In this document: one piece after another, positions 5,224 through 18,318 of the stretch
Numbering within the stretch: position 1 is the stretch's first letter
Layout of the letters: every line of letters starts with the position of its first letter
Source: Pseudomonadales bacterium
GTDB lineage: Bacteria > Pseudomonadota > Gammaproteobacteria > Pseudomonadales > Pseudohongiellaceae
Direction: 5' to 3'
DNA: 33,132 bases
Assembly (NCBI GenBank): GCA_028279115.1
Contig: JANQSV010000109.1
Location: forward strand, 1 to 33,132
The notes under the pieces: model-generated
What the model was told of the DNA's origin: nothing
Databases searched by the model: none
What the model saw: only the letters and a program-made list of their open reading frames with translations
Position numbers and translations under genes: made by a program

Positions 5224-6276
5224 CTATGATGTCGCGACCGCCGCTTTCCGTTGCCAATCGCTCGCAGCGCCGAGCACGGCCAATTGCCCGTGTTCAACCA
5301 GACAAATGGGCACATTCATCAAGAACGGATTAACGGTCCCCTTGTTCAGAAACCTTGTCATGAAGGATTCATTGCGCCGGATAAGGTCCGATAGTTGTGA
5401 TAAGACTCCGCCAGCCAAATAAACACCTCCATGCGTTCCCGAAGCGAGCGCGAGGTCGGCCGTCATGCTCCCCAGCGCTCCACAAAAAACATCGATCGCA
5501 CGCGCGGCGATCGGATCACTTCGCGCGCGCGCGGCATCTGCGATGTCCGCCGGGTCGCCTAGCAAGGCCGCTCGCCCGGAAATCCCGCAAAGCGTCTGGT
5601 AAAGGGTCAAGAGACCAGGTCCGGATAAAATCCGCTCCATCGGCACATGACCGTCATCAGGCATCAGCACTTTCAGGATTTCCAGCTCAAGCCGTGACGA
5701 TGGCGCGAAACTCATCTGTCCAGCTTCACAGTCAAGCACGACCGGATCACCATTTCCGCATGGTACACGGATTGCCGCGCCAAACCCGGTTCCGGCGCCA
5801 ATTATGAGTATTGGTTGGCTGGCATTGCAGAACAGCAAACCATTTAAAGGTTCAACAACATTGGCGTCAATATGATCAATCCCATGCGCCAGCGCATAGA
5901 AATCGTTGATAATATTAACCGCGCTAAAACCTAACCGCTTTTTGATTTCGTCCACTCGAATACCCCATTTGAGATTGGAATTAACGACATTCCCACCGGA
6001 TAGGTATCCCGCCACAGCAATCGATATCCCACCAATGTTTGGCGTGTTGTGTTCAGTCAAGAAAAGCTCGATCAACTCCTCAAGACGCGCAAAATCAGCA
6101 CAAAAATATTTTTGGTAGCTTATTATCTCAGCTTGCGAATCCGACCCACCGGGAACATCCACAACAGCAAGTCTGGCATGCGTGCCGCCAACATCCGCGG
6201 AAAGCACAAATTGCCTTTGCTCCCGATGCCGCTCTCCAATGCGCCGGAAAAGACCATAATCGTTGGTAACAGTCAT
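5224..6276 (-). CDS. glk: Glucokinase-family sugar kinase (candidate GlcNAc/glucose kinase)
   Basis: LSADVGGTHARLAVVDVPGG phosphate-binding motif, AGTGFGAA, DCEAGQMSFAPSS and GGVYLAGG. Confidence 0.85.
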   Translation of the reverse strand: MTVTNDYGLFRRIGERHREQRQFVLSADVGGTHARLAVVDVPGGSDSQAEIISYQKYFCADFARLEELIELFLTEHNTPNIGGISIAVAGYLSGGNVVNSNLKWGIRVDEIKKRLGFSAVNIINDFYALAHGIDHIDANVVEPLNGLLFCNASQPILIIGAGTGFGAAIRVPCGNGDPVVLDCEAGQMSFAPSSRLELEILKVLMPDDGHVPMERILSGPGLLTLYQTLCGISGRAALLGDPADIADAARARSDPIAARAIDVFCGALGSMTADLALASGTHGGVYLAGGVLSQLSDLIRRNESFMTRFLNKGTVNPFLMNVPICLVEHGQLAVLGAASDWQRKAAVATS

Positions 6277-6285
6277 TCCCCTCTC

Positions 6286-8022
6286 CTAATGCTGTTTTAT
6301 CGCCGCCAGAGATTCGGCAGGCGCCGGGCCGCGAATACGGACAATGACATAAGCGCCTGTCGCCGCCGCCACACCGAGATTGATTATTGCCCAGAAGACA
6401 TCGCCATAAAGCAGGAATCCAATACCAAAGAGAGTGCCGTAGGTGCCCGCGATCGCCGCGGCGGAGAGGCCCAATCCTTCGAAGAGTTCGCGCCGCGGGG
6501 CGCCTGTCGGCCATGCAATCCGCTTGAAACGGTTTTGCGTCTCACCGGACTCCGGAGACGTCAGCAAAGTAACGGCAACCCAGCCAATCGTGGTCACACC
6601 GACACCCAGCACATATTGCATCCAGTCAGCCATGTCCGGCCCCAGAAATTCGAGCCAGATATTAATCGCAAAAGAAATAATCATAGCCGAGATCTCACTC
6701 CAGGCATTAATGCGAGACCAAAACCAGCGCAGGAAGAACAACAACCCGGTCCCGGCGCCGATTGCGAGGAGAAGTTGGAATGCCTGCAAAGCATCTTCGA
6801 GGATGAGCGCGAAGGCGCCCGCGGCGACCATGAGAAGGATGGTTAAAAGGCGCCCGGCTCTCACTTGCTGTTTTTCGGATGCTTCGGGCGCGATAAACCG
6901 GACATGGATGTCCTTGACCAAATAGGAGGCCCCCCAGTTCAGGCTGGTTGAAATCGTCGACACATAGGCAGCCACCAGAGATGCCGCGACAATACCAAGA
7001 ACCCCCGGCGGCAGCAGGGACAACATGGCGGGATAAGCAAGGTCATTCTGAATGAGACCGCGATCAACATGCGGCAGAGCTGCCGCCAGACTGTCGAGAT
7101 CAGGGAAAACGATCAGAGACGCCAACGCCACCAGCAGCCATGGCCAGGGGCGCAGCGCTATATAGGCGAAATTGAAGAAAGCGGTTGCCGCCATGGCGTG
7201 GCGCTCGTCGCGGGCGGACAACATGCGCTGCGCCACATAACCGCCGCCACCGGGCTCGGCCCCCGGATACCAGGCACTCCACCATTGCACCGCCAAGGGC
7301 ACCAGCAATAAAGGCACAAAACTGTTCGGATCGGAAAAGTCGGGCAGGAAACTCTTTTTATCGACCACGTTCGGGTGCTCAATGAGCTGGCTCAAACCGC
7401 CCACATCAATATGGTTGAGAGCGAAATATGCGGCAAGACACGCGCCGACAAGCGCAACAACGAACAGAATCATATCCGTAATCAGAACTCCGAGCAGACC
7501 GCCAATCGCCGAGAAAGTGACGGTCACAAACCCGGCGACAAGCACAAGCTGGAGCGGTGAAACGCCAAAGAGAACAGCGCCGAATTTGATCGCCGCCAAG
7601 GTCACATTCGCCATGATCATGACATTGAAGAACAGGCCCAGATAGGCCGCCCGAAACCCTCTCAGAAAGGCTGCGGGTTTGCCGCTGTAGCGCTGTTCAT
7701 AGAATTCGATATCCGTGCTGACGCCAAGTCGCCGCCACAGTCGCGCATAGACAAAAGCCGTGATCATTCCGGTGATGAGAAAACACCACCAAGCCCAGTT
7801 TGCGGCCACGCCGTTGGATCGTACAAGGCTGGCAACAAGATTGGGCGTATCGGCTGCGAATGTGGTGGCAACCATGGACGCTCCCAAAAGCCACCAAGGC
7901 ATATTCCGCTCACCCAGAAAATAGGATGAACTGTTCCTCGATGCATATCGGCCAACCAGCAGGCCAATGACAACAATGGTTACCATAAGCCCCGCCACAA
8001 TTACCCAATCAACCGCCGCCAT
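6286..8022 (-). CDS. Sodium:solute symporter (SSS family), candidate GlcNAc/sugar transporter
   Basis: Multi-TM protein with SSYFLGERNMPWWLLGASMVATTFAADTP and FSAIGGLLGVLITD. Sits in an operon with the kinase and SIS protein. Confidence 0.85.
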   Translation of the reverse strand: MAAVDWVIVAGLMVTIVVIGLLVGRYASRNSSSYFLGERNMPWWLLGASMVATTFAADTPNLVASLVRSNGVAANWAWWCFLITGMITAFVYARLWRRLGVSTDIEFYEQRYSGKPAAFLRGFRAAYLGLFFNVMIMANVTLAAIKFGAVLFGVSPLQLVLVAGFVTVTFSAIGGLLGVLITDMILFVVALVGACLAAYFALNHIDVGGLSQLIEHPNVVDKKSFLPDFSDPNSFVPLLLVPLAVQWWSAWYPGAEPGGGGYVAQRMLSARDERHAMAATAFFNFAYIALRPWPWLLVALASLIVFPDLDSLAAALPHVDRGLIQNDLAYPAMLSLLPPGVLGIVAASLVAAYVSTISTSLNWGASYLVKDIHVRFIAPEASEKQQVRAGRLLTILLMVAAGAFALILEDALQAFQLLLAIGAGTGLLFFLRWFWSRINAWSEISAMIISFAINIWLEFLGPDMADWMQYVLGVGVTTIGWVAVTLLTSPESGETQNRFKRIAWPTGAPRRELFEGLGLSAAAIAGTYGTLFGIGFLLYGDVFWAIINLGVAAATGAYVIVRIRGPAPAESLAAIKQH

Positions 8023-8060: not shown

Positions 8061-8279
8061 CTAAATACGCCCGCATCGCGCATGATATCCAGTGCATTGG
8101 TGACAAGGGTGATTGGAAAACCAATCATATCCAAAATGACGGCGCGCGACCGCCATGGTTCGGATCGTATCCACGATTGGCCTTCCATCAGCAAAAACGC
8201 CGATGGCGGCCCCGCTTGCAGCCCAACGCGCGGCTTTGCCGTCGCCCGGCAAGATTCGTGCGCCACGCAACACATGCAT
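8061..8279 (-). other. Short ORF coupled by TAATG to the SIS gene; possible truncated gene
   Basis: ATG (8279-8277) overlaps the SIS stop TAA (8281-8279). 72-aa product MHVLRGARILPGDGKAARW...; family not identified. Confidence 0.3.
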
Positions 8280-9316
8280 TAACGGGTCACCGTCACTTTA
8301 TTCAGGAAAGGTGGGTTGTCGGGATTCAGCCCCCGCTCGTGCGACAATGCATTAACCATGCGGTAAAAGGTCTGGATTTGCAGAACCGGGGTCAGCACTG
8401 GCACATTTGAGATCGAGAGCGCGGGCAGGTGGACGGCGCCCGGCAGCGCAGCACCAACGGAAAAGCACTTCGCGCCTCGTTCCGAAAAACTCTCCGCCAG
8501 TTCCCCATAGCTGTTTGCAGCTTCGTCCGACGGCACAAAAAACAGAACAGGAAAACCATCCCGCACAATTGTCATAGGTCCATGTTTAACTTCCGCGGCG
8601 CTAAAAGCTTCCGCGTGAAGCGCGCAAGTTTCCTTGAACTTCAACGCTGCTTCTTCGGCGACAGCAAGCCCAGCACCACGTCCGACAACGAACAGGCTTG
8701 AAGCCTCGGAAAAAGACGGCAGACATACCGACCAGTCGAGTTGCCAGGCGGATTCCAATTGCCCGGGAAGCAATCTCACGGCTTCAACGCCCGCGGCATT
8801 TCCCGTCAGGCAAAACACAAGATTGGCTAGCGCGGTCAATGAGCAGATGTAGGACTTGGTCGCCGCAACACTCTGCTCAGACCCCGCGGAGATCGGCAAG
8901 ATAAAATCTGCGATCTCTGCAAGTGGGCTCGAAAGGTCATTGGTAATCGCAATGACTCGCGCACCATTTCTGGCGGCGAATTCGGCTGATATGACCAAGT
9001 CATCACTCTGCCCGGACTGGGAAATACAAATAAAAAATGCATCACCCAACCGCATCGAAGATTGATAAATGGATGCGACAGAAGGCGCAAAGGAAACGAC
9101 GGGGACGCCAAGTTGGGTTTCAAATAGATATTTGCCGTAAAGCCCTGCATGGTCGGAACTCCCCCGCGCGCACATTAGCACAAAAGATGGTGGCCGAATG
9201 TTGAATTCCAACGCGATCGCCGCCAGCCCATTTTCCATATCCGTAAATTGGCTTTGCACCGATGAACTCGAACTACTTGCTTCTTTAAACATCAATGATG
9301 TTTCCGCGACTGACAT
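8279..9316 (-). CDS. SIS-domain protein, candidate glucosamine-6-phosphate deaminase (NagB-II type)
   Basis: CARGSSDHAGLYGKYLFE, ISQSGQSDDLV, SEQSVAATKSY and EVKHGPM: duplicated SIS domains as in the GlmS isomerase half, with no glutaminase domain. Confidence 0.88.
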   Translation of the reverse strand: MSVAETSLMFKEASSSSSSVQSQFTDMENGLAAIALEFNIRPPSFVLMCARGSSDHAGLYGKYLFETQLGVPVVSFAPSVASIYQSSMRLGDAFFICISQSGQSDDLVISAEFAARNGARVIAITNDLSSPLAEIADFILPISAGSEQSVAATKSYICSLTALANLVFCLTGNAAGVEAVRLLPGQLESAWQLDWSVCLPSFSEASSLFVVGRGAGLAVAEEAALKFKETCALHAEAFSAAEVKHGPMTIVRDGFPVLFFVPSDEAANSYGELAESFSERGAKCFSVGAALPGAVHLPALSISNVPVLTPVLQIQTFYRMVNALSHERGLNPDNPPFLNKVTVTR

Positions 9317-9557: not shown

Positions 9558-9704
9558 CGGTCATATCCATGATCACAAGCTCCGTGCGCCCGCAACTCGC
9601 CGCAATCCCACCCCGCAACGCTTCCAACACACCACGAGCGCAGCGCGGAAATCACCGCAGATCCGAAGCCCGCTTTTGCACCTTCCGAATAGTCGCTCTA
9701 AAAT

Positions 9705-9720
9705 ATGATCACGTAGTCAT
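9705..9720. promoter_or_regulatory. Candidate LacI-family operator upstream of GH18
   Basis: ATGATCACGTAGTCAT, a near-palindrome matching the sites at 16647 and 16870. Confidence 0.55.
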
Positions 9721-9817
9721 TTTATAGGAAAAACCGATGCAATCAAGGATTCTTCCCCGGCGACCAAGCCGCCTTGCCGGAAGCAGGCGCAAGGATAAAA
9801 AGGGTACGAAACTGAAA

Positions 9818-11008
9818 ATGTGGCGCCTCGCGCTGATTGGAATGCCGCTGATGACCGGAAGCGCTCTACAGGCAAGCACACAAAACGAAAAGCCGATTAT
9901 CGCTTCTTACTATTCCAGCACAGGGTCATCTGAGAAAGTGGCCGAAATTCCAGCCGCCAAGCTTTCTCATGTTCTCTACGCTTTCCTTACGCTTTGCGGC
10001 GACCATCGAACGGCTGGTCCGGCTGCCTCGGCGCGTGTGGCGGCCGCCTGCGCGAATCAGCCGGACTTCACGGCAACCCGCATTGGCGGCCCTGCCGAGA
10101 CGGAAGAACTCGCGGCCTTCGAAACGCTCAAAGCGGAACATCCACACTTGAAAGTCCTCGCTTCGTTTGGCGGATGGAACCTGTCCGCTCCTTTCCGGCA
10201 AATGGCGAAATCAGATGCCGGCCGGCGGCGCTTTGTCCGCACAGCCATCGAAATCATCAAGGATCATCCGGCTTTTGACGGCATTGATATCGACTGGGAG
10301 TATCCCGGGGGTGGCGACAATTCCTCTCTCCCGCTTGGCTCGGACGAAACCGCAACGGAACGTTACGCCTTCCGGGCAATGATGCGGGAGCTGCGCATTG
10401 GCCTGGACCGTCTCAGCGTGAAAACCGGGCGATCCTATTCCCTCAGTGCGGCTGTCAGCGGCGCGGCCCGGCAGACCGCGTCGATCGACTGGGCGGGAAC
10501 AGCGCCTCACCTGGATATGGTCTTTGCGATGACCTATGACTTCGCGGTCGGCGATGGCGCCGCGACCCATCACGCCAATCTTTATCCTGTCCCAGGCAAG
10601 ACCGCACTCAGCGGGGTCGAGATGATTGAGAATCTTCATATTGCGGGCATTCCCGAGGACAAACTGGTCCTGGGCGCCGCTTTTTATGCAAGAGGCTGGG
10701 AAGGCGCTCGATATCGGAATGGCGCGGTGGTCACACAGGACGCGTCCCAATCCATCGGATCATTTCGTTTCCGGGATTTGCGGGCCAACCCGCCGGACGG
10801 GTATGAATATGCCTATGATACCGATGTGGAGGCGGCGTTTCTGATCAACCGGGAAACTGACGGTTTTATAAGTTTTGATGATCCGCGATCAATTGCCGCA
10901 AAAACGGATTTTGTCAAAAAAAGAGGTCTTGCGGGAATTTTTTCCTGGCAGATAGAGCAGGATGATGGCGCGCTTCTCGACGCCATACATCAAGGCCTCG
11001 CGGAATGA
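9818..11008 (+). CDS. GH18 chitinase, secreted
   Basis: Catalytic motif FDGIDIDWEYPG, MTYDFAV, and a C-terminal GIFSWQIEQDDG. Signal-peptide-like start MWRLALIGMPLMTGSALQAS at 9818; the frame is open from 9737. Confidence 0.9.
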   Translation: MWRLALIGMPLMTGSALQASTQNEKPIIASYYSSTGSSEKVAEIPAAKLSHVLYAFLTLCGDHRTAGPAASARVAAACANQPDFTATRIGGPAETEELAAFETLKAEHPHLKVLASFGGWNLSAPFRQMAKSDAGRRRFVRTAIEIIKDHPAFDGIDIDWEYPGGGDNSSLPLGSDETATERYAFRAMMRELRIGLDRLSVKTGRSYSLSAAVSGAARQTASIDWAGTAPHLDMVFAMTYDFAVGDGAATHHANLYPVPGKTALSGVEMIENLHIAGIPEDKLVLGAAFYARGWEGARYRNGAVVTQDASQSIGSFRFRDLRANPPDGYEYAYDTDVEAAFLINRETDGFISFDDPRSIAAKTDFVKKRGLAGIFSWQIEQDDGALLDAIHQGLAE

Positions 11009-11147: not shown

Positions 11148-13571
11148 CTATGAACGGGTCTCGCCGCCGCGCAGGGGCTGCACCCAGTCAATCACCCAGA
11201 ATGGATCGATTTCAGCGCTGGCAAATTGGAAGCAAAGGTCGTGTTCACCGGCACGCGGCTCAATATCGCCTTCGATCGTCTCCAGACCAAGCCCATCAAG
11301 TCCCGCCAGGGGCAGCCGGGCGATAATGTCGCCCTCGCATGTATCCTGTCGAATCAGCAATTCACCTTCAGCCGTTTCCGGTTCGGGATGGGTAATGCTG
11401 TTGACGGCGTCGCCAACTTGAAAATTGAATGGAATCTGACCGATGCTCAGGCGCATGCCAGTTACATCATCAAGCCGCGCATCTTCATAAATCCAGCATG
11501 GATTGAAAATATCGACATTATAGACAGCACGCTCACCGCGAACCGGCCCGTCATCCTCCAGCCGAAGCACCAGTCCCTCACTACACATTTTCAGATCATC
11601 GTCTTCCCGGCGCTCAATGGTTTCAACTGTGAAAGTCCGTTCAACCGTATCGGCCAGCACACGACCATCATGAAAGGCATTTGCCCGGATGGTGACTGGC
11701 AGCGATTGTTCGAACGGCGCATCGAAGCGCGGCGAAGACGAGGTTGGCTCGGACCCGTCCAGCGTATAGCGGATTTCACCAAACCCTGTCTGGTTTTCCA
11801 GCCGCATCCGGATCAGATCGTTGCCCGCTGTGCGATCAATTCCGACATCGACCTGAAAAGCGCTGTCGGCGTAAGCCAGGCCAAGCGCCTCATATCGCCG
11901 GAACTGAACTGTAAGCCGTTTCAGGAACTCATTGAAATCCTTCGTTTCGCCATCCGTCCAGGCGATTTCGGCCACGGCTGACGCACGCGGAAAGGACATA
12001 TGCGTGACGCGCTCCCGCAGCCGCATATGCTCGGTCCAGATATTCGCCTGGATTCCCAGTATGTGTTTGGCTTCCTCATCGGTAAGCTCATCCGGCCGCG
12101 GATCGTAGACATAGATGTCTTCGAGTGTCTGAACATTGGGTTCGGGGCGCCCGGCCGGTTCATCCCGCAGGCTGCTTTGCGCAAAATCGAAATACAGCAG
12201 CGGCCCCGGGGTCATGACAACATCATTCCCCCGCTTGGCCGCTTCAATGCCGCCAATTTCGCCCCGCCAGGACATAACCGTCGCATGCGGAGACAGACCG
12301 CCTTCCAGGATCTCATCCCAGCCAACCAGTTTACGGTCGTTCTCATGCAGAAACGCCTCGATACGGCGGACAAAATAGCTTTGCAGTTCCTCTTCGGTGT
12401 TGACACCAAATTCACGCATGCGCTCCTGAACCCGCGCCGATGCCTTCCATCGATCCTTTACGGCTTCATCTCCGCCGATATGAATATATGCGCCGGGGAA
12501 AAGCGCCATGACTTCATCCAGGACATCCTCAATGAAGGCGAATGTCTCTTCCTCAACATTGTAGAGATGAGGATAGATTCCCCAATCCGCGCGGAGTTCG
12601 ATCTCTTCACCGGTCACGCCATATTCCGGATAGGCAACCAGCAGGGCCTGCGCATGTCCCGGCATTTCAATTTCGGGAACAACCGTGATGTATCGCTCGG
12701 CGGCGTAGGCCACAATATCGCGCACCTCTTCCTGGCTGTAAAAACCGCCATAGAGACGTGGTTTGCCAGTCACCGGGTCAATATCCGCCCGAGCCGCCTC
12801 GCCCGGCTGAACCCGATACGCTCCAACACTTGTCAATCGTGGATACTTTTTGATTTCCAGACGCCAGGCCTGATCATCAATCAGGTGCCAGTGAAACACG
12901 TTGAACTTATGCAAAGCCATCCAGTCAATGAACTGCTTTATATAGTCAGTGGACTGATAGTGACGCGCGCTATCGAGCATCAATCCACGCCAGACGTAAC
13001 GAGGCGTGTCCATAATCGTGAGCGCCGGAAGTTCAATCGCGGCTCTTTCGCTTTCAACGGATGTCAACATCTGCCAGAGTGTTGTTGCCGCATTGAACAG
13101 GCCGGCGCCTTCACCCGCGCCAAGGCTCACGCCATCATCGGCAACAACAAGCTCATACGCGTCGGAAGCCGTCGCTCCAGGCGCGGTCGCCGTCGTCCGG
13201 AAGACAATGCCGCCCCGCCCATTCCCGCCGGACTCCTGAACCGTCAACTCGAAATCAAACCGCGTGGTCCGCGCCATAAGATCAATAAAGTATTCAGCGA
13301 TGCGGATCGCCTCCGTATCCTGACCGGACACTTCGACCTGGATTGCATTGCTCACGAGGAAGGCGCCCCGCCCCGGCTTTATCACAGCCGGGGCCGGAAT
13401 AATGGATAAGGTATCGGCGGACACTGCAACAGGTGTCAGACCCCGGGAACCTGCCGGATCAGGCCGGGTCGCAGCCGACTGCTCGCCGGCGCACCCTGAA
13501 ACCGCAAGATTGGCGGCAACCATTGCGGCGCCCGCCATTGCCGTCCTCATCCCCGTTAACATTGTCTTCAC
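11148..13571 (-). CDS. GH20 beta-N-acetylhexosaminidase, lipoprotein, with C-terminal extension
   Basis: YIHIGGDEAVKD catalytic motif, WRGLMLDSARHYQ, KFNVFHWHLIDDQAWR; lipobox-like LAVSGCAG at the N-terminus. Confidence 0.92.
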   Translation of the reverse strand: MKTMLTGMRTAMAGAAMVAANLAVSGCAGEQSAATRPDPAGSRGLTPVAVSADTLSIIPAPAVIKPGRGAFLVSNAIQVEVSGQDTEAIRIAEYFIDLMARTTRFDFELTVQESGGNGRGGIVFRTTATAPGATASDAYELVVADDGVSLGAGEGAGLFNAATTLWQMLTSVESERAAIELPALTIMDTPRYVWRGLMLDSARHYQSTDYIKQFIDWMALHKFNVFHWHLIDDQAWRLEIKKYPRLTSVGAYRVQPGEAARADIDPVTGKPRLYGGFYSQEEVRDIVAYAAERYITVVPEIEMPGHAQALLVAYPEYGVTGEEIELRADWGIYPHLYNVEEETFAFIEDVLDEVMALFPGAYIHIGGDEAVKDRWKASARVQERMREFGVNTEEELQSYFVRRIEAFLHENDRKLVGWDEILEGGLSPHATVMSWRGEIGGIEAAKRGNDVVMTPGPLLYFDFAQSSLRDEPAGRPEPNVQTLEDIYVYDPRPDELTDEEAKHILGIQANIWTEHMRLRERVTHMSFPRASAVAEIAWTDGETKDFNEFLKRLTVQFRRYEALGLAYADSAFQVDVGIDRTAGNDLIRMRLENQTGFGEIRYTLDGSEPTSSSPRFDAPFEQSLPVTIRANAFHDGRVLADTVERTFTVETIERREDDDLKMCSEGLVLRLEDDGPVRGERAVYNVDIFNPCWIYEDARLDDVTGMRLSIGQIPFNFQVGDAVNSITHPEPETAEGELLIRQDTCEGDIIARLPLAGLDGLGLETIEGDIEPRAGEHDLCFQFASAEIDPFWVIDWVQPLRGGETRS

Positions 13572-13678: not shown

Positions 13679-16534
13679 CTACAGCTTGAACCGCGCACCG
13701 AAGAAGAAACGGCGCCCAAATCGACCCTGACCACCAATCCGCTGCGGCACGGCAAAATAGTTTTCGACGGTGTCCTCGTCAGTGAGATTCAGGCCCTCAA
13801 TAAAGAGGGTCACAAATCCCCGGGTGTAGCTGGCATTGAAATCGACCTGCTGAATGCCTTCCGCGAACCGGTTCTGCCCGTTGGACACACCGAGGAAGTA
13901 ATCACTGCGATAGTTGTAAGAGATTCGGGTCGAGATCGAGCCTTTTTCATAGAAAATGCTCGAATTGACCGTATTCCGTGATTGACCGGGAAGACCCGCA
14001 AAGGCGGAGTCGGATACGGAGTTTTCAGAGAAGGTATAGTTTGCACTGACACCAAAGCCATCGAAAGGCTCAGGCAGATTATCAAGATAATGCAGCGCAG
14101 CCAACTCGAAGCCGTAGATTTTACCTCCACCACCGTTCACAGGCCGGGTCACGAGAACGTTCACGAGATTATTCGTGTCACCGCCGAGTGGCACGAACTC
14201 ATTTTCCTGACCACTGACCGTGAAGGAGAGAATATCCTTGTAGAAAGCAGCCGCGGAGACCGCATTCCCTTCGCCATAATAGTATTCGGCTGAAAGATCG
14301 TATCCGTTTGCCACAAAATTATCGAGATCCGGGTTTCCGCTATTAGCCTGCAAGGTCTCTTCAATCACTACAATCGTTGGCGACAATTCGCTGAAGGTCG
14401 GACGCGCAAGCGTTCTGGCCGAGCCAAAACGAACGATGAGATTTTCGGTCAGATCAGCCGCCAGGTTGAAACTTGGAAGAATGTCTGTCTGACTGTCATT
14501 CCGCATGAACGGCTCAGGCACGCCATTGGTAATCAGATTTGCTTCAGACTGCCTCTCAAGATGCGTAATCCGTGTACCTAGATTACCCCGAAGGCTCAGT
14601 CCGCCAATATCACTGGAGAAGTTCACCTGCGCATAACCCGCATAGATGTCTTCCGCGATATCAAAGAACTCGTCAATGCTTGTCACTTCAGCACCCGCAA
14701 AGACGGAGTCATTGCCGTTGCCTTTCCCGAAAAGCTCATCAATCGCCTCGGGATCAGGGATCAGGAAAGCGCTGATCGCATCCTCGAAGCCGCTGCTCAG
14801 GAAGTCATCCGGAGTTTGTGACGGATTGAGCTGACCGAGGTTCAGACCAAAAATGCTGATACCGTTTGCATCAAGGAAGTTCTGAGCGACATCGCCGAAG
14901 GAGGCGACCGTCTGATTGCGATCCTGCGAAACACGGCGGGATTTGAAGCCGGCCTGGACACTTTCGAAGAAACCACTATCGAAATTATAGGTCACATCAA
15001 ACTGGGTATGGAACTCGTCCTGCACCTGATCAAGATTGATGAAGTTGACGAAGCTGAAGAATTGACCCGTAGGATCAAGCAGATCGACGCCGACAGACTG
15101 CTGACCGTTTTCCTGTACGCTGAGATCGAAAGTTTGATCACCAAACCCAACTGTCTCAAAGAAGCGATTGTCGGATTTCACATTGGCGCGTGTATATCCG
15201 ACACTCGTGAAGACTTCGAAATTCCGACCGACCGGCGCCCAGGTTGTCCCAAGATCAACCGCAAATGTGTCAACCATGGAATCGCGATCAAAGGAATCAA
15301 GCGCTGTGGTGAAAACGTTTCCACGAAGACCGGTAAAGTTGACCCCTTCCGTGATCCGCTGCGGAATTGTTCCTGAAATGATCGTCTGGTTTTCAATTAC
15401 GGCATTATTGACGGGTTCAACGATATTGCCCGCGCCACCTGTCCGCAAAGGCAACAAGAGGAAGTTATTGTTTACACCCGTTTCCCGCAACTGCGAGTAA
15501 AGGCCGGTCAGGTGGAAGTTCAGGTTTTCAGTCGGCTGCCATTCGATGGCGCTCGATCCGCCGGCGCGCTCCCGTACAGTCGGAAAGTACGTGTTCGCCA
15601 GAAGATCCGGGAGGAACAGACCATCCGGCGATTGGATCCCCTGAATAACAGGGTTCCCATTCTCATCAATCGTTTCGATACCCTGAATCGTCGGAGCATT
15701 TTCCGGAAGCACGCCAAAACCGCGGGTTGGATCCAGCGTTCCCGCCGGAACCACACCAAAGTCCAGAACACCATCGGAGTCGAGATCGACCGGACGCTGC
15801 GAGAAGCTCAGCGGGCCGGCAGCGTCGCCACGGATGCTCCGTTCGGTGTATGCGCCAGACAAAATGACACCAAACTTATCGTCTGGCGACCGCCACCCGG
15901 CGCTGAGAGAGAAGCGCGGGTCGACTTCGTCGGCCAACGGCGCATAACCACCTTCAATTGATCCGGCCAGCAAATATCTGTCCGCCAAATCGAGAGGGCG
16001 GCGCGTCTTGAGAATAACCGTTCCGCCAACTCCGCCCTCATCAAGCCGCGCTTCCGGCGTCTTATATACCTCGGCAGACGAAATAACTTCCGAAGCGATC
16101 AGAGCAAAGTTGAAGCTGCGACTGGGCTGTTCGTCCTCAAACTGGTTGGATGACGCAATGAACTGCCCATTCAGCAAAGTCAGGTTTTGTTCGGGCCCCA
16201 GGCCGCGAATGGAAATCCGCTCGCCCTCACCCCGACTGCGATCAATCGCAATCCCCGGAATACGCTGAAGCGCCTCGGCAATGTTTTCATCCGGAAAGAC
16301 ACCGATGTCTTCCGCCGAGATGGCATCAACAATCGCATTCGAGTTTCTCTTGACGTCCTGAGCGCGGAGCAAACTTCCGCGAACGCCGATCACCTCCACT
16401 TCATAAATGACAGCTCTTTCATCTTCACGGATCTCATCTTGCTCAGCAACAGGCTGCGCGTCTTGCGCGTACATCGTGCCGGCCAGCATTGCGAAGACGA
16501 GAACGCTTGCGGATGATTTAAGGATATTCACCAT
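13679..16534 (-). CDS. TonB-dependent receptor (candidate chitooligosaccharide uptake)
   Basis: Plug domain IAEALQRIPGIAIDRSRGEGERISIRGLGPEQNLTLLNG; C-terminal GRRFFFGARFKL ending in an aromatic strand; signal peptide present. Confidence 0.92.
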   Translation of the reverse strand: MVNILKSSASVLVFAMLAGTMYAQDAQPVAEQDEIREDERAVIYEVEVIGVRGSLLRAQDVKRNSNAIVDAISAEDIGVFPDENIAEALQRIPGIAIDRSRGEGERISIRGLGPEQNLTLLNGQFIASSNQFEDEQPSRSFNFALIASEVISSAEVYKTPEARLDEGGVGGTVILKTRRPLDLADRYLLAGSIEGGYAPLADEVDPRFSLSAGWRSPDDKFGVILSGAYTERSIRGDAAGPLSFSQRPVDLDSDGVLDFGVVPAGTLDPTRGFGVLPENAPTIQGIETIDENGNPVIQGIQSPDGLFLPDLLANTYFPTVRERAGGSSAIEWQPTENLNFHLTGLYSQLRETGVNNNFLLLPLRTGGAGNIVEPVNNAVIENQTIISGTIPQRITEGVNFTGLRGNVFTTALDSFDRDSMVDTFAVDLGTTWAPVGRNFEVFTSVGYTRANVKSDNRFFETVGFGDQTFDLSVQENGQQSVGVDLLDPTGQFFSFVNFINLDQVQDEFHTQFDVTYNFDSGFFESVQAGFKSRRVSQDRNQTVASFGDVAQNFLDANGISIFGLNLGQLNPSQTPDDFLSSGFEDAISAFLIPDPEAIDELFGKGNGNDSVFAGAEVTSIDEFFDIAEDIYAGYAQVNFSSDIGGLSLRGNLGTRITHLERQSEANLITNGVPEPFMRNDSQTDILPSFNLAADLTENLIVRFGSARTLARPTFSELSPTIVVIEETLQANSGNPDLDNFVANGYDLSAEYYYGEGNAVSAAAFYKDILSFTVSGQENEFVPLGGDTNNLVNVLVTRPVNGGGGKIYGFELAALHYLDNLPEPFDGFGVSANYTFSENSVSDSAFAGLPGQSRNTVNSSIFYEKGSISTRISYNYRSDYFLGVSNGQNRFAEGIQQVDFNASYTRGFVTLFIEGLNLTDEDTVENYFAVPQRIGGQGRFGRRFFFGARFKL

Positions 16535-16646
16535 TTAAGGCCTCCCAGTGCGCGAAAACCACCTTGACAGACTGTCCAACCAGATCGGCCACCTCAATTC
16601 GCGACCGCCGCGGACAGGCTCAATAGAGTGAGGAGGCTACAACAAA

Positions 16647-16662
16647 ATGATTACGTGGTCAA
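16647..16662. promoter_or_regulatory. Candidate LacI-family operator upstream of the TonB receptor
   Basis: ATGATTACGTGGTCAA; 14/16 identical to the palindrome at 16870. Confidence 0.55.
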
Positions 16663-16869
16663 TAGCAAAGCCACATATTTCAGGATCATCTCAAAATTTC
16701 CGTCGAATGCTTGAGGCGCTGCCGGGAATTCCCGGATCCAGCCTCTTTTTCTAGATATTTATTACCAAGATGCCATCCGGGAGCAAGGTGGCGTGACACA
16801 CGGTCGCTCCCGCCCCGGCAGCCGGCGAGTGGCGAAGCATAGAGAAATAAGGGTGAAAACTTCTTGCAA

Positions 16870-16885
16870 ATGATTACGTAATCAT
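16870..16885. promoter_or_regulatory. Candidate LacI-family operator upstream of PP2C
   Basis: Perfect palindrome ATGATTACGTAATCAT. Confidence 0.6.
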
Positions 16886-16977
16886 TTAATGTCCATCCGA
16901 ATCTTCGTGTGGAGGTGTCAGCGTGCCGGCCTCACCCCGCCGCAACGTTTGACGACAAAAGATGCGAGTATGATCGA

Positions 16978-17832
16978 ATGGGTATCACTCTTTCCTATCA
17001 TCGCTCTGACAAGGGCGATGGGCAATTTAACGAAGACACCTACGGAGCAACGAAAAGCATGGCTTGGCTATTGGATGGCGCGACGGGTCTCGACAGCTTA
17101 CTCATCGAAAACAGATCCGCTGCGAATTGGTTCGTCAATACCTTTTCCGATGTATTGAAAATACTGAGCAACGAACTGACAGATATCTCAAGCATGGATT
17201 TGCTAAGGCAAGTCTCTGACAAGGTGCGAGATCTTTATCAACAACAAATCAAAAATTGTCCCGCCGATACTTTGCCTCCTTCGAGCACCTTGGTTATGGT
17301 GAGAGAATTTGATGAAAAGATTGAGATTTGCGCACTCGGAGACTCTCGCGCAATCTTTGATCTCAAGGAAAGCGGGATCACAACATTCGGCTCCTCTCCA
17401 ATAGAGGATTTCGATAATGAAGTATTGCAAAAGCTGGAATCTCTACGACTCGAAGATCCAAACATTAGTCTACCCCTGGCTACTGAGCATCTGCATTCGG
17501 ACCTGATGACTATCCGGCAACGCAAGAACACTGCAAATGGTTATTGGGTTTTATGTCCAGTAGACAACCCATTTGATCATATGCAAGTCATTCAGCTAGA
17601 AAAAGATGAGATTGTTGGAGGTGAAATTCTTGTCGCAACTGATGGCTTTCTGAGATTGTCGGAAGTGTTCGGGCACTGCGACAATGGGCATCTTTTGCGC
17701 ATGAACGATAGTCAACTCGGCGCAACATTTGAAAAGTTGCGTCAATTGGAAAAAGGAGATCAATCCGCTATCCACTATCCACGTCTGAAGTGCTCTGACG
17801 ATGCGACATGCTTGAGAGTAGATATTCTCTAG
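16978..17832 (+). CDS. PP2C-family (PPM) protein phosphatase
   Basis: SDKGDGQFNEDTYG, WLLDGATG, ICALGDSRAIF, ILVATDGF and CSDDATCLRVD match the PPM metal-binding motifs. Confidence 0.8.
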   Translation: MGITLSYHRSDKGDGQFNEDTYGATKSMAWLLDGATGLDSLLIENRSAANWFVNTFSDVLKILSNELTDISSMDLLRQVSDKVRDLYQQQIKNCPADTLPPSSTLVMVREFDEKIEICALGDSRAIFDLKESGITTFGSSPIEDFDNEVLQKLESLRLEDPNISLPLATEHLHSDLMTIRQRKNTANGYWVLCPVDNPFDHMQVIQLEKDEIVGGEILVATDGFLRLSEVFGHCDNGHLLRMNDSQLGATFEKLRQLEKGDQSAIHYPRLKCSDDATCLRVDIL

Positions 17833-17851
17833 TACGAATATTGTGTGAGCG

Positions 17852-18153
17852 CTATGGAAGCGCCGGCCAGAGGTTCGGCGGCGTCCACCGCCGTTCCCGG
17901 TGCGGAGCCGGCCGCAGTCCGTCGTGTTCGTCCAGGTCTTCGCATCCCGGCGTCAGTGCGCACACCCGCTGTCGGACCATCGCCCGGAGCGGATGTTGGC
18001 AACTGGCCTTGCGGCGCGAATCGGTCAGCGCCCGCACGACCCGGACGGTCAATCCGGCATCCGACCGACCTGACGCAAAAGCGACATGCCGCCGTCGGCG
18101 CTGACCGCGCTACCAGAAAAACCGATCTCCATAACGCGGCTCGACTTGGAAAA
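17852..18153 (-). pseudogene. Frameshifted N-terminal remnant of an IS1380-family-like transposase
   Basis: Minus-strand reads FSKSSRVMEIGFSGSAVSADGGMSLLRQVGRMPD, then one frameshift, then LTVRVVRALTDSRRKASCQHPLRAMVRQRVCALTPGCEDLDEHDGLR. Layout resembles the (S/T)SDGG...LR...QRVxALALGYEDLNDHDxLR region of IS1380 transposases. Confidence 0.7.
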
Positions 18154-18318
18154 CGAACGAACTCCGGGATACAATCCGCCATGAGCGGAGTGTCCTTGGA
18201 TATCAGCCCAAGCAACTTGAATTATATCGAAATACGGGTGCTCCGCCTGCCCCGTTCATGCGACATTCGGGTTAACTTGACGATGTTTGCCCAAGCAGAT
18301 TTTGGAGAAAGATGACTG

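Follow-up and report, generated by a model that had tools for sequence, protein, structure and literature searches.

A PP2C-fold phosphatase gene in a predicted chitin/GlcNAc regulon and its relatives in distant amino-sugar loci

Background

Among the closest described counterparts of the locus analysed here is the NagR (LacI) GlcNAc regulon of gammaproteobacteria, which combines a LacI-family regulator with a TonB receptor, GH18 and GH20 enzymes and NagB-II, transporter and kinase genes, and which has even, CG-centred boxes (PMC5343134). All of these components recur in our window, a stretch of 33,132 nucleotides (contig JANQSV010000109.1) from a Pseudomonadales bacterium of the Pseudohongiellaceae, but its operator reads AATGATTACGTAATCATT and not AATGACAACGTTGTCATT, its cluster lacks nagA, and a gene for a PP2C phosphatase has been added. 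Stand-alone phosphatases are known from other sugar catabolic regulons: NagD, encoded in the nag operon, and AraL, from the arabinose operon, are sugar or nucleotide phosphatases (PMC3207120), and MupP is comparable. These enzymes belong to the HAD superfamily, whereas the window enzyme is a PP2C, and the analogy is one of role only.

The window protein shares the metal-site motifs NED, DG, GD[SC], [ST]DG and DD with the bacterial PP2C/PPM phosphatases (PF13672; best solved matches 5d2u and 2j82). To our knowledge, the PP2C enzymes described so far act on proteins. The family around the window protein differs from them in sitting in amino-sugar regulons with no kinase partner nearby, and in features of its active site that are discussed below.

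Gene content of the locus

The PP2C-fold phosphatase gene (P0001) occupies positions 16978-17832 on the plus strand and encodes 284 amino acids. Its assignment is based on the open reading frame, a family alignment and a match to PF13672 (PP2C_2; E = 2.4e-7, 30.9 bits with a cut-off of 24), which places it within PP2C/PPM at the family level. Judged from its homologues, which start approximately 10 to 18 residues before the NED motif, translation most likely begins at the ATG at 16978 and not at the GTG at 16909. This ATG is itself without a clear ribosome-binding sequence; a GGAGG (16911-16915) located between the predicted operator and the ATG precedes a 9-codon GTG frame (16923-16952), a possible leader ORF.

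The gene for a TonB-dependent receptor of the TIGR01782 type (13679-16534) lies on the minus strand, with a GH20 beta-hexosaminidase gene (11148-13571) downstream of it on the same strand. A GH18 (chitinase family) gene follows on the plus strand (9737-11008), and the minus strand further encodes a SIS-domain protein (8279-9316), whose best NCBIfam match is NagB-II glucosamine-6-phosphate deaminase at a score below the family cut-off, a sodium:solute symporter (6286-8022) and a glucokinase-family sugar kinase (5224-6276). On the other side, 486 bp downstream of the PP2C gene and on the same strand, is the gene for a NagR-like LacI-family regulator (P0002; 18319-19368, plus strand), recognized by Pfam and by its relatives in GlcNAc loci. 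The phosphatase and lacI genes are thus neighbours, as the original prediction held, and it was also right about the kinase: no Ser/Thr kinase is encoded among the window ORFs scanned, and the single Hanks-type kinase gene of this genome is located on a separate contig (C191). nagA is absent among the window ORFs scanned as well; the nagA gene of this genome is found on contig C360, where a second amino-sugar locus (L142; symporter, BadF, NagA, SIS, MurQ, NamZ) is present which contains no PP2C gene. Loci resembling it exist in other members of the genus (L143-L145).

The gap between the PP2C and lacI genes (17833-18318) is GC-rich (approximately 62-65%), and its ORFs have no Pfam match. One fragment of it is 79% identical over 115 bp to contig C266 and another 88% over 56 bp to contig C48; the gap may be a decayed repeat or the remnant of a mobile element.

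Predicted operators and their regulator

The palindrome AAATGATTACGTAATCATTT (16868-16887) is perfect over 20 bp and the longest of its kind in the window (the runner-up measures 14 bp), and dinucleotide shuffles of the window produced no match to it. We predict that it serves as operator for the NagR-like LacI protein. The best palindrome of the window does precede the PP2C gene, as had been claimed; the distance, put at about 93 bp in the original prediction, is 90 bp to the ATG at 16978. A second copy (16646-16663) precedes the receptor gene and shares the divergent receptor/PP2C intergenic region with the first, 223 bp apart from it, and a third (9704-9721) is located before the GH18 gene. 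With up to two mismatches to the core WNTGATTACGTAATCANW, the whole 3.35-Mb assembly contains three sites, all of them in the window (9704, 16646, 16869), and none that matches the reversed control pattern. In shape the operator is even and CG-centred like LacI operators, a property of most LacI-family sites (PMC4052901). Only a poor site (9360, mismatched at 6 of 18 positions) was found upstream of the NagB-II-like gene, and a sigma-70 scan detected no promoter above threshold overlapping the palindrome.

The regulator itself has relatives with 44-50% identity in 31 other genomes among the 392 searched in the order; the best relatives in other genomes of the genus are approximately 40% identical. 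NagA and/or NagB-II-like genes are present in nine of ten inspected loci of these relatives, and the remaining locus (L164) contains only BadF-, NagX- and receptor-like genes. Eight of the ten have boxes with at most three mismatches from AATGACAACGTTGTCATT; L162 and L168 have none. The recognition helix reads GVSIKTVSR or GVSFKTVSR in all ten relatives compared with GVSAKTVSR in the window protein, and the perfect box in the window is AATGATTACGTAATCATT compared with the usual AATGACAACGTTGTCATT. The recognition helix and the operator of the window LacI thus seem to have changed in parallel, and this lends indirect support to its using the palindrome.

Set against the NagR regulon, the locus shows a NagR-related LacI gene adjoining GlcNAc/chitin genes and palindromes before targets (n = 3), but neither nagA in the regulon nor a predicted operator elsewhere in the genome. 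On sequence grounds it is well supported that the window PP2C shares a regulon with the chitin/GlcNAc genes. The view that the phosphatase is wired into this regulon is strengthened by the predicted operator that it has in common with the chitin/GlcNAc genes, by the adjacent NagR-like LacI gene, and by the recurrence of its family in amino-sugar loci.

Distribution of the PP2C family

Among close relatives the gene is rare. A search with P0001 found PP2C in none of 57 relatives (36 belong to the same genus), and a profile of the family (A2) detected it in only five further genomes among 295 of the order; it is missing from all ten inspected NagR-type loci. Several members of the genus possess a NamZ-MurQ-GntR-SIS-NagA locus that contains no PP2C gene, and BadF and symporter genes accompany it in some of them. 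From this distribution, the window PP2C is best described as a patchy acquisition and an accessory gene. A PP2C gene is present between GntR and SIS in a locus of this same type on a metagenome-assembled contig (L065). Although the record title gives uncultured Sphingomonadales, the NamZ, GntR and receptor of L065 share approximately 70% identity with their counterparts in the window's genus, which could reflect horizontal transfer, misbinning of the contig or a closer relation than the title says.

Such a record could suggest a mere passenger, acquired horizontally between the receptor gene and lacI, with the palindrome mainly serving one of these two. That neither the close relatives searched nor the ten inspected NagR loci have the gene is in line with this, as are the fragments in the PP2C-lacI gap resembling other contigs and the single divergent intergenic region common to receptor and PP2C genes. 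However, this region contains two separate operators, one near each gene. Members of the family also form part of amino-sugar loci in several lineages, at times with genes that overlap, and a mere passenger is unlikely to do so repeatedly. We consider the passenger explanation improbable.

In distant bacteria, however, the family recurs. Full-length relatives, identified by protein similarity alone, are encoded on plasmids of Sphingopyxis, Novosphingobium, Croceicoccus, Cupriavidus and actinobacteria, and the proteobacterial relatives in amino-sugar loci are 22-31% identical to the window PP2C. A profile search of further genomes with annotation of marker genes in loci of 13-20 kb yielded 27 proteobacterial loci, that of the window among them, and 12 of these (11 without L101, which has BadF and GntR) are amino-sugar loci, in a sample biased by a profile built from members in such loci; the 15 loci outside provide an informal contrast only. 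All five sphingomonad-type loci and all five loci of one small order are amino-sugar loci; the Cupriavidus locus is not. In the sphingomonad-type loci the neighbours comprise varying sets of AnmK, NagA, SIS, MurQ, GntR, receptor and symporter genes, and a GntR regulator is present in most amino-sugar PP2C loci. The PP2C gene overlaps nagA by 4 bp in two loci of the small order (L113, L114), and overlaps of 1-4 bp with nagA or anmK in some loci indicate that the genes are probably co-transcribed. In two other loci we noted a CutC-family gene between NagA and PP2C (L111) and an ORF of the same length at the same place (L112), which looks like the same gene.

In a tree of 29 rows the locus label switches at least three to four times among 27 of them, and the window PP2C forms a long branch of unsure placement. 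Upstream of the PP2C genes in L065-L069, whose control is of the GntR type or unassigned, GGTAT words occur 12 times compared with 2.0 expected (maximum of 1000 shuffles: 8); we infer that they represent the box of the GntR regulator. There are also genomes and loci with a full GlcNAc/MurNAc pathway that do without PP2C. The conserved neighbourhood asked of this gene thus exists for its family in GlcNAc/MurNAc loci of distant bacteria and is absent from the close relatives searched. The description of the phosphatase as an unusual component applies to the window's genus but not in general, since amino-sugar loci repeatedly have PP2C as an accessory gene. Our searches of the open-access literature found no description of a PP2C subfamily linked to loci of GlcNAc/MurNAc catabolism.

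In actinobacteria the company is different. On plasmids of Kitasatospora and Verrucosispora the PP2C relative follows a GntR/UTRA regulator, in Streptomyces uncialis it is fused to a UTRA domain, and other actinobacterial plasmid relatives follow a protein with a weak helix-turn-helix match; no sugar genes are annotated near the actinobacterial plasmid relatives. This context speaks for a link to regulation more than for a purely catabolic role. An unusual domain pairing was seen on a Streptomyces plasmid (L071, 5995-7880), where the PP2C-UTRA fusion is followed by a gene for a P-loop kinase (AAA_33, zeta-toxin-like).

These regulators bear on the possibility of a true protein phosphatase, induced together with the pathway, which would dephosphorylate a Ser/Thr-phosphorylated pathway protein or regulator and reverse the action of a kinase encoded elsewhere. 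Membership in the PP2C fold family fits such a signalling role, as do the repeated position of relatives beside GntR/UTRA regulators, with one type fused to UTRA, and the Hanks-type kinase gene on contig C191. Yet no protein kinase was found in the window ORFs scanned, and the kind of regulator varies (LacI here, GntR elsewhere), so that a common phosphorylated regulator site is unlikely. We regard a protein phosphatase as a serious possibility, though rather more doubtful than probable; the specific proposal that the enzyme dephosphorylates the regulator, the transporter or the receptor is pure inference.

Active site and substrate

The metal-binding aspartates D20, D33, D122, D222 and D274/D275 are kept in all 29 members of the family, and the PP2C motif residues D20, D33, G34, D122, D222, G223, D274 and D275 are invariant in 29 of 29 rows of the alignment. 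The active site, whose integrity had been raised as a question, is therefore intact at these metal-binding motif aspartates. Beyond them the family departs from other bacterial PP2C/PPM proteins. It has invariant residues of its own (W51, R180, R255, E258, R269 and K271 in the 29 rows) and it lacks the phosphate-clamp Arg three residues before NED: this position is Gly15 in the window PP2C and not Arg in its relatives, whereas the solved cyanobacterial-type enzyme 2j82 has an Arg three residues before its NED-like motif. The phosphate-binding Arg before the NED motif is not found in all PPM branches, and SpoIIE/RsbU-type PP2C members are likewise without it. Because of these members, the missing Arg is no proof that the substrate is a small molecule. 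An AlphaFold2 model built from two sequences only reached a pLDDT of 43.5, a single-sequence PDB search with the window PP2C gave no matches, and matches to caspase-7 and leiomodin in a PDB comparison were discarded as noise.

The kinases encoded beside members of the family are small-molecule kinases: AnmK, BadF and glucokinase-family proteins, and the P-loop kinase in L071. A phosphorylated amino sugar is suggested as substrate by the neighbouring sugar kinases, by the absence of a protein kinase close by, by the change at the phosphate-binding position and by the examples of NagD and AraL; what the PP2C fold family generally does, together with its pairing with regulators, points to a phosphoprotein. 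We slightly prefer the former. That the enzyme is a regulon phosphatase acting on a phosphorylated amino sugar of the pathway is our tentative first choice by analogy, with a chance somewhat below even. Weighing against it are the actinobacterial relatives, which have no annotated sugar genes around them, the 15 proteobacterial loci of other kinds, and the full GlcNAc/MurNAc pathways that manage without PP2C.

According to this preferred reading, the window protein would be a metal-dependent phosphatase of the PP2C fold from a family of patchy distribution, whose members have joined amino-sugar (GlcNAc/MurNAc/chitin) regulons as accessory genes on repeated occasions. The palindrome at 16868-16887 would be the binding site of the NagR-like LacI, which would keep the PP2C, receptor-GH20 and GH18 units repressed until released by GlcNAc (or its phosphate) derived from chitin. 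The phosphatase would then strip phosphate from an amino-sugar phosphate, such as GlcNAc-6-P, GlcN-6-P or a relative of MurNAc-6-P, and might thereby limit sugar-phosphate build-up and weaken the signal for induction, a role already suggested for AraL and NagD in their sugar operons. A more general version, in which a PPM/PP2C subfamily paired with LacI or GntR/UTRA regulators hydrolyses phosphorylated amino sugars in place of phosphoproteins and so erases the inducer of its own regulator, seems to us rather unlikely.

Other roles were considered. A function as a substitute for MupP was rejected, as two sphingomonad loci carry a HAD phosphatase gene together with the PP2C of this family. The gene has no PADLOC match that would indicate a defence system, and phage cargo was dismissed as well (no PHROGs match for P0001, one weak phage record, no relative on a viral contig).

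Conclusions

Our analysis suggests that the window PP2C is an uncharacterised phosphatase which helps to manage the use of chitin or cell-wall sugars, and that it belongs to a PP2C subfamily with an unexpected but recurrent home in amino-sugar loci. Should the substrate prove to be a sugar phosphate, the PP2C fold would gain a role in metabolism; should it be a protein, the use of amino sugars in such bacteria would have a layer of phosphorylation that nobody has looked for.
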